Assembly (NCBI GenBank): GCA_019187105.1
Contig: JABAQM010000001.1
Span: 992,001-1,056,000 of the forward strand
DNA length: 64,000 nucleotides
From: Fimbriimonadaceae bacterium
GTDB taxonomy: Bacteria; Armatimonadota; Fimbriimonadia; Fimbriimonadales; Fimbriimonadaceae
Direction of reading: 5' to 3'
The position numbers were made by a program, and so were the translations under genes. A model generated the notes under the pieces. The model saw only the letters and a program-made list of their open reading frames with translations. It made no database searches and was not told the DNA's origin. Each line of letters begins with the position of its first letter. Position 1 is the first letter of the stretch. Shown piece by piece: positions 21,257-63,673 of this stretch.

Positions 21257-21550
21257 ATGGCATTGCAGCTCAAGCCCCTCGGTGACAAGGTTGTGGTCGA
21301 GGTACTCGACGCCCAAGACAAGACCGCCAGCGGGATTTACCTTCCCGACTCGGCCAAGAAGAAGCCACAAGAGGGCAAGATCGTGGCCGTCGGAAGCGGC
21401 CGCCACCTGGACAACGGCGATCGCAACAAACTAAGCGTCAAGGTCGGCGATCGGGTCCTGTTCAGCAAGTATGGCGGCAACGAGGTCAGCGTCGACGGTA
21501 ACGACTACACCATCCTTGACGAGGACCAGGTTTACGCGGTCCTGAAATAG
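21257..21550 (+). CDS. groES: co-chaperonin GroES
   Basis: The lid of the GroEL folding chamber. 97 residues. The N-terminus [23 protein letters not shown] contains the usual LGDRVVV block and the mobile loop; the C-terminal half has [17 protein letters not shown]. Start ATG at 21257 after an ACGGAGGATTC Shine-Dalgarno. A CIRCE element lies upstream and a terminator directly downstream, so it is a single-gene unit, unlike the usual groESL operon. Confidence 0.97.
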
Positions 21551-21595: not shown

Positions 21596-23287
21596 TTATG
21601 GATTAAGAAATCTGACGATCGCCTGATCGATACCGACTTTCCACGGCAACGAGAATACCGGAGCCGTCGCCCGGTAGCTTATGCGCATCTTCACCACCTT
21701 TGCCGCGTTGATATATCGCGCAGGGTTAGGTATGTTGTTGAGCGTTACTATGGAGTCGGCAACGGAAGCCTGTCGCGTATCCACTGTAACGAACTGACTC
21801 AGTTGATTGTCGAACAGCTCGACTCGCTGCTGGAGTGAAGCCGACGAAGCCCGTGCTTCCAATCCGATGCCTAGATTGCTCGTAGAAGTGCCCGGCACCG
21901 GAACATCCAGTACGATCCTAACCGGCGGAATCTGGTTCGATGGCACGGTGGCCTGTGCGATTTCGAGCCTGGAATCGTCCGAAAACTCGATCGACGAAAG
22001 ACCGCCGCCCAGGACATTGCCCCAGTCCACGGTGAGCGTAGTTGCCCCACAGTCTTCATGCAGGGGCCGGATCCGGAACAGCTTGGCCATATAGAAGGTG
22101 TTGACGTAAAGATATCCGTCCGGACCGACCTGCAGATCGGTCATCGCACCAAAGGAGTTCCCTATCAAGAACGGGTCAGACTCGAGGTCGCCATCCGCCA
22201 CTTTGTCCTGAGTGTCCGGCGTATAAAGTACGGCGTCACGTGCAGCGTTAAGGGGCAATCGAAAGAGGCGACCATAGACGCTGTCGCCGAACAGTACTCC
22301 ATCCCGTTCTGGAGAATTGAGCTTGAGAGTCTTCGGCACAACAATCGAGGTGATGCCTGCCGGTGTCAGCATTGAAAATGGCGGATCCTGATAAGTGGCT
22401 CCGGCCAAATAGATCAGTTGATTGGCGTCGTACGAGACGAAGTCGTTATCGTTGTACTCGGCATCGCGAGCATCGGGGCCACAGATTCTGAGCCATCCAT
22501 AGTTCCCACCCTTCACGCCGATGTTGACCTCGTCGTAGACTTCCGGGCCGTTGTCCGTAAACCATAGCCTCCCGGTTGCGGGGTCGAAACCCATGCCGTA
22601 ACAGTTCCGCACGCCATAAACCCACAGGGCCTTGATCTTTGGATCGGCGTGGCTGATGAAGGGATTATCTGCCGGGATGCTGCCGTCGGTATTGATGCGG
22701 TAGATCCCGCCCGCTCCTGCTGCGGCTGCAGATCCGGTGTTTTGCTCGATTCGCGGGTTGTTGTCGCGCCCCCGACCCATATCGCCCAGTGCGACATACA
22801 GCTTGCCGTCCGGCCCAAACCTCAGGATGCCGCCGTGGTGGATGAAGCTTTCGTTTTGGTTAGGATCCTTCGGCCAGGTCATTAGAATCTGGTCTTCGAC
22901 CATCGTTTGATTGGCCAGGTAGCGGCATCGCACCACACGGTTTTCCTCGAACGGGCCATCGTCGACCAAGGCGTACGAATAGTAAATGTAGGCGAAGCCG
23001 TTGGTGCTGAAGTTGGGGTCCAGTGCGATACCCAGAAGGCCCTCTTCGCCCAGGCTGGCGACCGAGACATCGAGGACGACACCTTTGAAAACCCCGTTCT
23101 CGAACCGAAGGATCCGCCCCGTTTCCTTTTCGAGCATGAGCACGTTATTGGGGGCGACGAAGGTGAAACCCGTGGTGAGGGCTGCCCCGAAGGCGACTTC
23201 CTCGACCTTGTAGCCGGGGACCGTCATGGTCTGCGACATTCCGAAGGCGCCAAGAGCGGACAGAGCCAAGCAAGCCGAGATCTTCAC
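21596..23287 (-). CDS. exported PQQ-type glucose/sorbosone dehydrogenase-like protein
   Basis: A 563-residue secreted beta-propeller of the soluble glucose dehydrogenase / sorbosone dehydrogenase family. After a signal peptide (KISACLALSALGAFG) come GEEGLLGIALDPNFSTNGF, HHGGILRFGPDGKLYVALGD, GVRNCYGMGFDPATGRLWFTD and GGNYGWLRICG, all family blocks. The last 160 residues form an extra domain of unknown role. I prefer GTG 23287 over ATG 23305: TATATT lies 6 nt upstream and the signal peptide is then of normal form. The substrate is probably a sugar or alcohol; the presence of PQQ is not certain. Confidence 0.85.
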   Translation of the reverse strand: MKISACLALSALGAFGMSQTMTVPGYKVEEVAFGAALTTGFTFVAPNNVLMLEKETGRILRFENGVFKGVVLDVSVASLGEEGLLGIALDPNFSTNGFAYIYYSYALVDDGPFEENRVVRCRYLANQTMVEDQILMTWPKDPNQNESFIHHGGILRFGPDGKLYVALGDMGRGRDNNPRIEQNTGSAAAAGAGGIYRINTDGSIPADNPFISHADPKIKALWVYGVRNCYGMGFDPATGRLWFTDNGPEVYDEVNIGVKGGNYGWLRICGPDARDAEYNDNDFVSYDANQLIYLAGATYQDPPFSMLTPAGITSIVVPKTLKLNSPERDGVLFGDSVYGRLFRLPLNAARDAVLYTPDTQDKVADGDLESDPFLIGNSFGAMTDLQVGPDGYLYVNTFYMAKLFRIRPLHEDCGATTLTVDWGNVLGGGLSSIEFSDDSRLEIAQATVPSNQIPPVRIVLDVPVPGTSTSNLGIGLEARASSASLQQRVELFDNQLSQFVTVDTRQASVADSIVTLNNIPNPARYINAAKVVKMRISYRATAPVFSLPWKVGIDQAIVRFLNP

Positions 23288-23293
23288 CTTATC

Positions 23294-23299
23294 AATATA
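23294..23299 (-). promoter_or_regulatory. -10-like hexamer 6 nt before the dehydrogenase start
   Basis: TATATT on the minus strand, followed by six bases and GTG. It supports the 23287 start. Confidence 0.5.
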
Positions 23300-23444
23300 A
23301 GACATTGAGGTCTCGATCGGGAAAAGTATCGGGGCCGACTATCGCCGGCCCCATCCTCTCCTTGTCTCTCCTCGGTTGCCAAAGCCAGCTTTCGTTGCTT
23401 TGCCAGCCGGAGACGAACCTAAGTTTTGAGCGTGGACGTCGCCT

Positions 23445-23757
23445 CCGACTGGACAAGTCCAATGCCGGAGAAACCTCCGACACCGGAAATCGAACCTGGA
23501 ACGCCGGTTCGAAGGAGGGAAACCAGGCGCTCCAGAATCGACAACGTATAGAGAGATCAAGTGGCTTCATGAGCCAGACCGGCGCAGGCAGTGGGATTGG
23601 GTCGGCCGTGGGAAGCGCATTCATGCGCTTGCCTCGCGCCGGTCTGGATCAGCGACGGCACGGTGGTCGCCGTAGCCAGGAACTCTCACGATCAAATTCT
23701 GCAGTTCGCAAAGTCATGAAAGGTATCCTTAACTTTGCGTCCTAATTCCTCAGGACA
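23445..23757 (+). ncRNA. hairpin-rich intergenic region, possible structured RNA
   Basis: About 310 bases without a convincing gene but with a run of local hairpins: TGGAC/GTCCA, CGGAG/CTCCG, GAACC/GGTTC, then a long stem. In that stem CCAGACCGGCGC (23574-23585) pairs perfectly with GCGCCGGTCTGG (23636-23647), extended by AGGC/GCCT past one bulge, and it encloses the hairpin AAGCGCAT-TC-ATGCGCTT (23613-23630). Further down CGCAAAGT pairs with ACTTTGCG (23707-23739) around AAGG/CCTT, and GTCCT with AGGAC (23739-23756). It ends just before a LuxR-PAS gene. I do not recognise it as RNase P RNA, tmRNA, 6S or a known riboswitch, and the strand is unknown. Confidence 0.45.
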
Positions 23758-23762
23758 GGGTA

Positions 23763-24386
23763 ATGGTCGAATCGCTTTCGCCTCAGGAGCAGCGTGTCTT
23801 GGAGCTTGCCGCTCAAGGATTGACCGATAAGGGAATCGGGAGCTCGCTTGGCATTTCTCCGACCACGGTCGTTACGTATTGGTCCCGCATCCGCGCCAAA
23901 TTGGGTCTCCATTCGCGGCCGGAATTGGTCGCCCACTTTATTCGGCACACGGCGGAGACGGACCTAGCTGTCCTGAAGGGACTGGTCCAAGACCACGAGG
24001 AGCAGATTGAACACCTCGCCCAGAGCCTTGAGACGCTTCGGCAGTACATCGATCTCGCGCCGGAGGCGATGCTTATCATCCATCCCGACGGCATCATCCA
24101 GAGCGGAAACGAGGAAGCGGCCCGCATTCTCGGATGCGCGATCTTGGACTTCGAGGCGCTGCCGATCGCGCGCTTCATTCCGCCGGAGTTCCAGCAGGCC
24201 CATCAAAAGCATCGGCTTGATTACCTACAAGACCCCCATCGAATGGAAATGGGCCACGCCGATGGCGTCGAGGTGGTGGATTTTGCGGGACGCAAGTTTC
24301 GGGGGGCGATCACGATCAATTTAGCGCCGACGCCGCTGGGCGATGCGATCGTCGTAAACTTGCGAAAGCTGGGTGTCACGCCATAG
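23763..24386 (+). CDS. LuxR-type HTH protein with C-terminal PAS domain
   Basis: A 207-residue protein. Residues 1-60 form a GerE/LuxR helix-turn-helix (LSPQEQRVLELAAQGLTDKG, then SPTTVVTYWSRIRAKLG); a charged helix of about 30 residues follows; residues about 95-205 are a PAS domain (LAPEAMLIIHPDGIIQSGNE, ending ITINLAPTPLGDAIVVNLRK). In most LuxR regulators the DNA-binding part is C-terminal, so this order is reversed. No receiver domain or cofactor-binding Cys/His is obvious. ATG start at 23763. The hairpin-rich stretch upstream may be its leader. Confidence 0.85.
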   Translation: MVESLSPQEQRVLELAAQGLTDKGIGSSLGISPTTVVTYWSRIRAKLGLHSRPELVAHFIRHTAETDLAVLKGLVQDHEEQIEHLAQSLETLRQYIDLAPEAMLIIHPDGIIQSGNEEAARILGCAILDFEALPIARFIPPEFQQAHQKHRLDYLQDPHRMEMGHADGVEVVDFAGRKFRGAITINLAPTPLGDAIVVNLRKLGVTP

Positions 24387-24539: not shown

Positions 24540-26210
<1,671 letters not shown>

Positions 26211-26220
26211 GCGCGAGATT

Positions 26221-26249
26221 GGTCTTATAGGACTTATAGGACCTATAAT
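26221..26249. repeat. 9-bp repeat cluster, copy A
   Basis: Tandem CTTATAGGA units within GGTCTTATAGGACTTATAGG and then ACCTATAATG. Essentially identical to the cluster inside the four-helix-bundle gene at 30357-30384. Confidence 0.8.
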
Positions 26250-26365
26250 GAGGCATCAAAGTGGAGCCCCTGATCCGGTATCAGGGGCTTCAGCCTTCAG
26301 ATGGTGGATATCTAGTCTTTGCGACGGAACGTGCGCTCTTAACCCGCCACTATCTGGCTAAGAAA
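26250..26365 (+). pseudogene. decayed relic of a four-helix-bundle protein gene
   Basis: In one frame this reads EPLIRYQGL, then a degraded stretch, then RHYLAKKSRTV. It corresponds to EPLIRPHGGYQGL and TRLYLDKKSRTV in the intact gene at 29987-30556, and the same 9-bp repeat precedes both. The rest of the gene is missing. The region also forms a perfect hairpin, AGCCCCTGAT/ATCAGGGGCT (26265-26289), created by loss of the bases between the arms in the intact copy. That hairpin could now help end groEL transcription, although no T-run follows. Confidence 0.7.
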
Positions 26366-63479: not shown

Positions 63480-63494
63480 GGGAACTGCACATAT

Positions 63495-63525
63495 GGAGCC
63501 GAGCGGCAGTTCGCCGCTCGGCTCC
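63495..63525 (+). terminator. intrinsic terminator after PEP-CTERM gene
   Basis: Arms GGAGCCGAGCGGC and GCCGCTCGGCTCC with a five-base loop, then TTAGTTTTCTC. Confidence 0.88.
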
Positions 63526-63673
63526 TTAGTTTTCTCGCCCACGAAGAAATCCGATAACGGCTTAATCTGCGGTTTGCGAGCAACATTCAGCCGAGGAGTT
63601 TGCCCTCAACGTCAAGGGTTAGACCAATAAAGGCCCGGCGGCCAAAGGAATCGCCGACCGATTCCAGCAGCGT

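Follow-up and report, generated by a model that had tools for sequence, protein, structure and literature searches.

The gap between a dehydrogenase gene and a LuxR-PAS regulator gene in this Fimbriimonadaceae genome is almost certainly a relic of a divergent respiratory operon, and the strong fold of one of its gene fragments is a derived state of this genome. By comparison with relatives, an internal deletion runs from codon ~24 in the first gene of the operon to codon ~54 in the fourth, and neither of the two fused fragments can any longer give rise to its protein. The best explanation that we can offer, as likely to be wrong as right, is that the old sense transcript of this wreck was remodelled and kept as a folded RNA. 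Coordinates refer to the window, i.e., the whole 64-kb stretch of DNA that was analyzed, and are collected in the table.

In relatives, the operon encodes, in order, a membrane protein, a Rieske protein, a cytochrome b, and a CydA-type domain protein (gene 4), and diverges from the LuxR-PAS gene. The membrane protein (gene 1; 369 aa in G023) belongs to no Pfam family and is present in 20 of 85 family genomes; a LuxR-PAS homolog adjoins the operon at 6 of these 20 loci, with one locus having too little upstream sequence to judge. In G023, G003, G048, and G010, LuxR-PAS orthologs with 47 to 61% identity stand next to intact operons, and the divergent gene directly upstream of each has first codons that match the minus strand of the window. 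The intact operon at L091 (3632-7655, minus strand) is an unusual gene set, its CydA-like protein showing a weak cytochrome c match at the C-terminal end. A search of the window's genome for the operon cytochrome b returned nothing beyond a 39% paralog; of the seven relatives searched, four likewise had paralogs, with 34 to 36% identity.

Both neighbors of the gap named in the original prediction, a dehydrogenase and a LuxR-PAS gene, were borne out by their Pfam domains. The closest relatives of the dehydrogenase are 44% identical. The LuxR-PAS protein matched eight loci from other organisms in GTDB contigs, the match being confined to the helix-turn-helix region. G011 (L026, G011:C8) retains a LuxR-PAS ortholog (46%) and has no match to gene 1, another instance of the regulator lacking the operon. 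In the window, groES (21257-21550) and groEL (24582-26210), which are ~0.6 kb apart in G010, are separated by the dehydrogenase gene, the remnant, and luxR.

Two pieces of the operon are recognizable in the gap, in the same strand and order as in the operons of relatives. Compared with the 20 intact copies over 15 codons, the gene-1 stub differs at 7 to 12 third positions, 1 to 4 first positions, and 0 to 1 second positions; these differences, mostly at third codon positions, fit a sequence that lost its coding role only when it was cut. For gene 4, positions 23517-23428 of the minus strand read LLRTGVPGSISGVGGFSGIGLVQSEATSTL against LVLTGVFGAVSGVGIWFAIGLVQPEATSTL in G023 (20 of 30 residues identical). 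The G023 protein matched the fragment with an E value of 1.9e-5 when compared with the whole 64 kb, and all 20 gene-4 orthologs did so with E values of 2e-9 to 6e-6 when compared with a 467-base stretch. Homology to gene 4 stops at ~23400, leaving 23306-23399 outside both aligned pieces, and no further operon remnant was found in the 64-kb window. The length missing between stub and fragment is ~2.75 kb, and the presence of the two gene pieces without the 2746-2864 bp that separate them in intact operons identifies the gap as a deletion scar. The gap therefore lacks a convincing gene today, as originally predicted, although what had been read as intergenic is, by homology to relatives, two gene fragments of a deleted operon. 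Neither the 110-aa minus-strand ORF nor the 146-aa plus-strand ORF had a Pfam match, and the open minus frame past the stub had a non-coding-like codon score. Homology in operon order and strand, broken frames, no intact copy elsewhere, and a LuxR-PAS neighbor placed as in relatives all mark the stretch as a remnant.

The luxR-proximal end of the gap (23738-23757) is probably an operator common to luxR and the lost operon. Perfect TGTC-N12-GACA dyads occurred within 250 nt upstream of gene 1 at 11 of 19 loci, with one mismatch at three and no dyad at five (the twentieth gene-1 locus, with just 76 nt upstream, was set aside), compared with a mean of 0.055 loci and a maximum of one in shuffles. 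The inner bases of the dyad show no consistent pairing, which favors a protein-binding site over an RNA stem. Since the dyad also occurs at loci where no LuxR-PAS gene adjoins, its cognate protein need not be LuxR-PAS. A perfect TGTCC-N10-GGACA dyad also lies at L145 1849-1868 (G000:C1:983848-983867), ~90 bases upstream of a gene that we take to encode an alanine dehydrogenase/transhydrogenase alpha subunit, and two further perfect copies are present on the same contig, at 713301 and 2769387.

Features of the remnant and its neighbors in the 64-kb window
Feature	Position	Strand	Basis or remark
Glucose/sorbosone dehydrogenase (GSDH family)	21596..23305	-	PF07995; downstream of remnant, same strand
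Whole remnant, from the operator/promoter side through the gene-1 stub and the gene-4 fragment to the terminal hairpin	23306..23757	-	Fold z, homology
Terminator-like hairpin with weak T tract	23320..23361	-	Ends 14 bases before dehydrogenase start
Predicted four-way junction	23393..23546	-	Closing stem 23546-23541/23398-23393
Junction arms (predicted)	23540-23520/23510-23491, 23487-23475/23470-23458, 23456-23439/23416-23400	-	
Gene-4 (CydA-like) fragment, codons ~54-103	23400..23544	-	Frame broken, with stop; protein match, orthologs, DNA alignment
Approximate deletion junction	23545..23552	-	2746-2864 bp between joined points in 20/20 intact operons
Gene-1 stub, codons 1-24	23553..23624	-	18/24 residues identical; sole match in whole genome
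Largest stem, 23651-23630/23590-23570	23570..23651	-	One arm stub codons, other a near-perfect inverted copy
Hairpin CGCAAAGTTA / TGACTTTGCG	23707..23739	-	Predicted fold
Candidate operator CGTCCTAATTCCTCAGGACA beside luxR	23738..23757		Dyad, one mismatch from TGTC-N12-GACA
LuxR-PAS regulator, intact, adjoining dead operon	23763..24386	+	Pfam GerE and PAS_8

The hairpins of this stretch are real, far above chance, and chiefly a property of the minus strand. The individual stems described in the original prediction were all present: a 12-bp stem CCAGACCGGCGC / GCGCCGGTCTGG (23574-23585/23636-23647), continued past one bulge by four further pairs (AGGC/GCCT) and enclosing the 8-bp hairpin AAGCGCAT-TC-ATGCGCTT at 23613-23630. 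The extent of the structure had been placed too narrowly, at 23445-23757; it reaches left to ~23306 and is stronger on the minus strand. Relative to shuffles, the narrower span gave fold z scores of -4.1 (plus) and -7.4 (minus) and the whole gap (23306-23757) -4.5 and -8.0, against a mean of -0.38 (sd 1.19, lowest -5.4) in 128 control tile-strands, and the minus strand folded better in each sub-region tested. The sole control tile below -3.5 was 26001-26313 on the plus strand (z -5.4), covering the end of groEL and the following bases. Under a strict, strand-neutral stem definition, the region contained 86 Watson-Crick pairs, with no shuffle (n = 400) exceeding 76 and no tile (n = 139) exceeding 77, whereas a looser definition gave 121 pairs against a mean of 111 (sd 10, 38 tiles) and did not set the region apart. 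The 16-nt inverted repeat (15 matches, loop of up to 60) is one of just two such repeats in the 64 kb; the other with at least 15 of 16 matches lies at 63492-63528 and has a loop of 5.

On the minus strand, the predicted fold is a four-way junction flanked by hairpins, with helix probabilities of 0.63 to 0.87 for the closing stem and 0.70 to 0.99 for the main arm helices. The largest stem contains neither G-U nor A-C pairs. A terminator scan returned one terminator-like match with the tail ATACTTTTCC, with 2 matches in the region compared with 1.4 in shuffles. Scanning the gap for promoter consensus sequences gave no promoter-like site, and no tRNA or tmRNA was found in the stretch.

Among the genomes compared, this fold appears only in that of the window. 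The 153-nt gene-4 coding stretch that matches the junction had sense-strand z scores of -2.83 to +0.73 in the 20 orthologs, compared with -8.27 for the minus strand here (plus strand, -4.12); because the orthologs fold ordinarily, the fold must have been acquired in this lineage. When orthologs were given random substitutions up to the observed divergence, none of 4000 neutral simulations was as stable (minimum -74.0 vs -81.1). Of the 56 pairs in the fold, 30 could already be formed by the bases that predominate in the family. In the alignment, the arm 23456-23439/23416-23400 derives partly from complementarity already in the coding sequence, and much of the remaining fold is new.

The non-Watson-Crick pairs of the strict stems show a bias that depends on strand. 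Read on the minus strand, G-U pairs outnumber A-C pairs to an extent that varies with the stem definition: 11 to 0 (strict), 6 to 1 (gapless), or 13 to 7 (lenient, p 0.13). Strict stems in controls contained 347 G-U to 371 A-C pairs pooled over 139 tiles and 1069 to 988 over 400 shuffles, and no tile or shuffle attained a G-U minus A-C difference of 11. As G-U pairs are stable in minus-strand RNA and A-C pairs are not, the bias may point to a constraint at the RNA level, in the old sense direction. Changes at conserved columns (n = 22) included one C>T, one G>A, and five T>C, so that C>T mutation, not being in excess, does not account for the G-U pairs. Bases unique to this genome were not clearly concentrated at paired positions (24/111, vs 6/40 at other positions). 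Selection and mutation may both have been at work on the hairpins.

Searches for RNA relatives returned no folded family. Infernal comparison with Rfam, by which the original prediction was to be checked, gave no match at gathering or relaxed thresholds. No folded relative was found in 51 genomes beyond the locus itself. In 291 genomes, a covariance model of the 23391-23549 fold detected itself and one place in G078, inside the intact gene-4 coding sequence; with an E value of 0.022 per genome across 291 genomes, that match is worthless alone, and the gene-4 assignment rests on the later protein comparisons. DNA searches of 41 genomes yielded, beyond the locus, just scraps of up to 57 bases (E 0.006 or worse), and phage and plasmid collections gave no match to the stretch. 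Matches elsewhere in its own genome were 24 to 25 bases long. A dispersed palindromic repeat was ruled out, the stretch having one copy in the genome. The fold was also rejected as a leader common to the GSDH family, since 15 of 16 GSDH homologs had ordinary upstream folds and one had a z of -6.8. Upstream of gene 1 in relatives, z was below -3.5 on the gene-1 sense strand at 5 of 19 loci, at least three of which contain, as judged by eye, terminator hairpins of neighboring genes.

These data were weighed against four accounts of the remnant. The strict-stem figures suggest that this lineage has retained the old sense transcript as a folded RNA, serving as a dehydrogenase leader or as an independent RNA; we rate the chance that such an RNA is made and kept as about one half or somewhat less. 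Here, the old leftward promoter would still be active and would read through the wreck toward the dehydrogenase gene, its transcript having been reshaped into the four-way junction and flanking hairpins. The RNA could then act as a structured 5' leader of the dehydrogenase, or terminate at the hairpin 23361-23320 as a molecule of its own, and would still be controlled by the operator that formerly ran the operon. The original suggestion of a regulatory leader or independent RNA thereby gains indirect support on the minus strand, from the derived fold and from strict non-Watson-Crick pairs that are G-U and never A-C. Close behind stands the explanation that the stretch is a pseudogene without function whose hairpins were made and perfected by template switching during replication, between inverted repeats that were imperfect, the fold being a by-product of mutation with no role for RNA; this is a serious possibility though short of an even chance. 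In the largest stem, 20 pairs without any G-U join stub codons to an inverted copy of themselves, the pattern that one template switch would leave, and several changes convert G-U to G-C or a mismatch to a pair, as homogenization of arms would; the minus frame past the stub also scores as non-coding. Mutation of this kind is reported as established in Escherichia coli (PMC7202029). Homogenization, however, acts on DNA and would leave G-T and A-C equally expected, against the 11 to 0 of the strict stems, and the 13-bp arm 23487-23458 has three non-Watson-Crick pairs, each of them G-U, and retains ancestral bases in its right arm.

It is improbable that the operator beside luxR is the sole functional element and the remaining stretch inert spacer, folded by accident and awaiting deletion. 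Conservation of the operator upstream of gene 1 at 11 of 19 loci is compatible with this, as is the finding that the upstream regions of relatives and 15 of 16 GSDH ones have own-strand z scores above -2 or no consistent structure, but the neutral simulations (0/4000) and the shuffles and tiles (0 of 400 and 139, respectively) rule out an accidental origin of the fold. Least probable by far is an old, independent structured RNA family lying in the gap, such as a riboswitch, ornate RNA, integron attC, or repeat element. The compact predicted junction and the terminator-like hairpin before a gene would suit such a family, but the sequence aligns to protein-coding genes 1 and 4, which refutes it for those parts. 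Against it also stand the lack of an Rfam match, of a structural relative in the 51- and 291-genome sets save the coding copy, of own-genome DNA matches longer than 24 to 25 bases, and of any counterpart in phages or plasmids. Returning to the kept transcript, it is possible, if doubtful, that the remnant represents an RNA soon after birth, with selection on a leftover transcript having built a multi-arm fold from protein-coding sequence. Promoter, operator, and regulator would then have outlived the operon, and the RNA would be the leader of, or a regulator near, the replacement dehydrogenase gene.

In leaders of the riboswitch and attenuator type, a junction fold and a terminator-like hairpin immediately precede a same-strand gene. 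The remnant resembles them in having both, as predicted, before the dehydrogenase, and differs in belonging to no known family, in its weak T tract, and in not being conserved upstream of GSDH homologs. Elsewhere, Xist has been described as descending in part from Lnx3, a protein-coding gene (PMC2430539), and some lncRNAs as fossils of protein-coding genes (PMC5577775). In the cases so described, as here, fragments of dead genes lie at the site of a noncoding RNA (a possible one in this genome) with the old gene order recognizable; unlike them, the remnant is bacterial, short, and known from sequence alone, and its gain of fold relative to orthologs was measured here. Pseudogenes of Sodalis glossinidius have been proposed as a possible source of small or antisense RNAs, in a study that rests on transcription (PMC7067036), whereas the case made here rests on structure read from the genome. 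Quasipalindrome template-switch mutation, as described in PMC7202029 and PMC8604942, yields or perfects hairpins without selection; it fits the largest stem and gives no reason to expect more G-U than A-C on one strand. No case of a dead bacterial operon shown to gain an RNA fold was found in the open-access literature searched.

As a pseudogene, the remnant is ordinary; its gain of structure relative to 20 intact orthologs is not. Structured RNAs that newly arise in bacteria seldom have a precursor that can still be recognized, which makes their origin difficult to study. Here, the precursor is known gene by gene and 20 intact orthologs preserve the ancestral unfolded state, allowing a base-by-base measure of the structure gained. 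If no RNA is made, the remnant would show cleanly that mutation by itself can build hairpins in dead DNA, and would warn against RNA calls from single-genome folding scores. If the RNA is made, it would be a direct case of protein-coding sequence turning into folded RNA.
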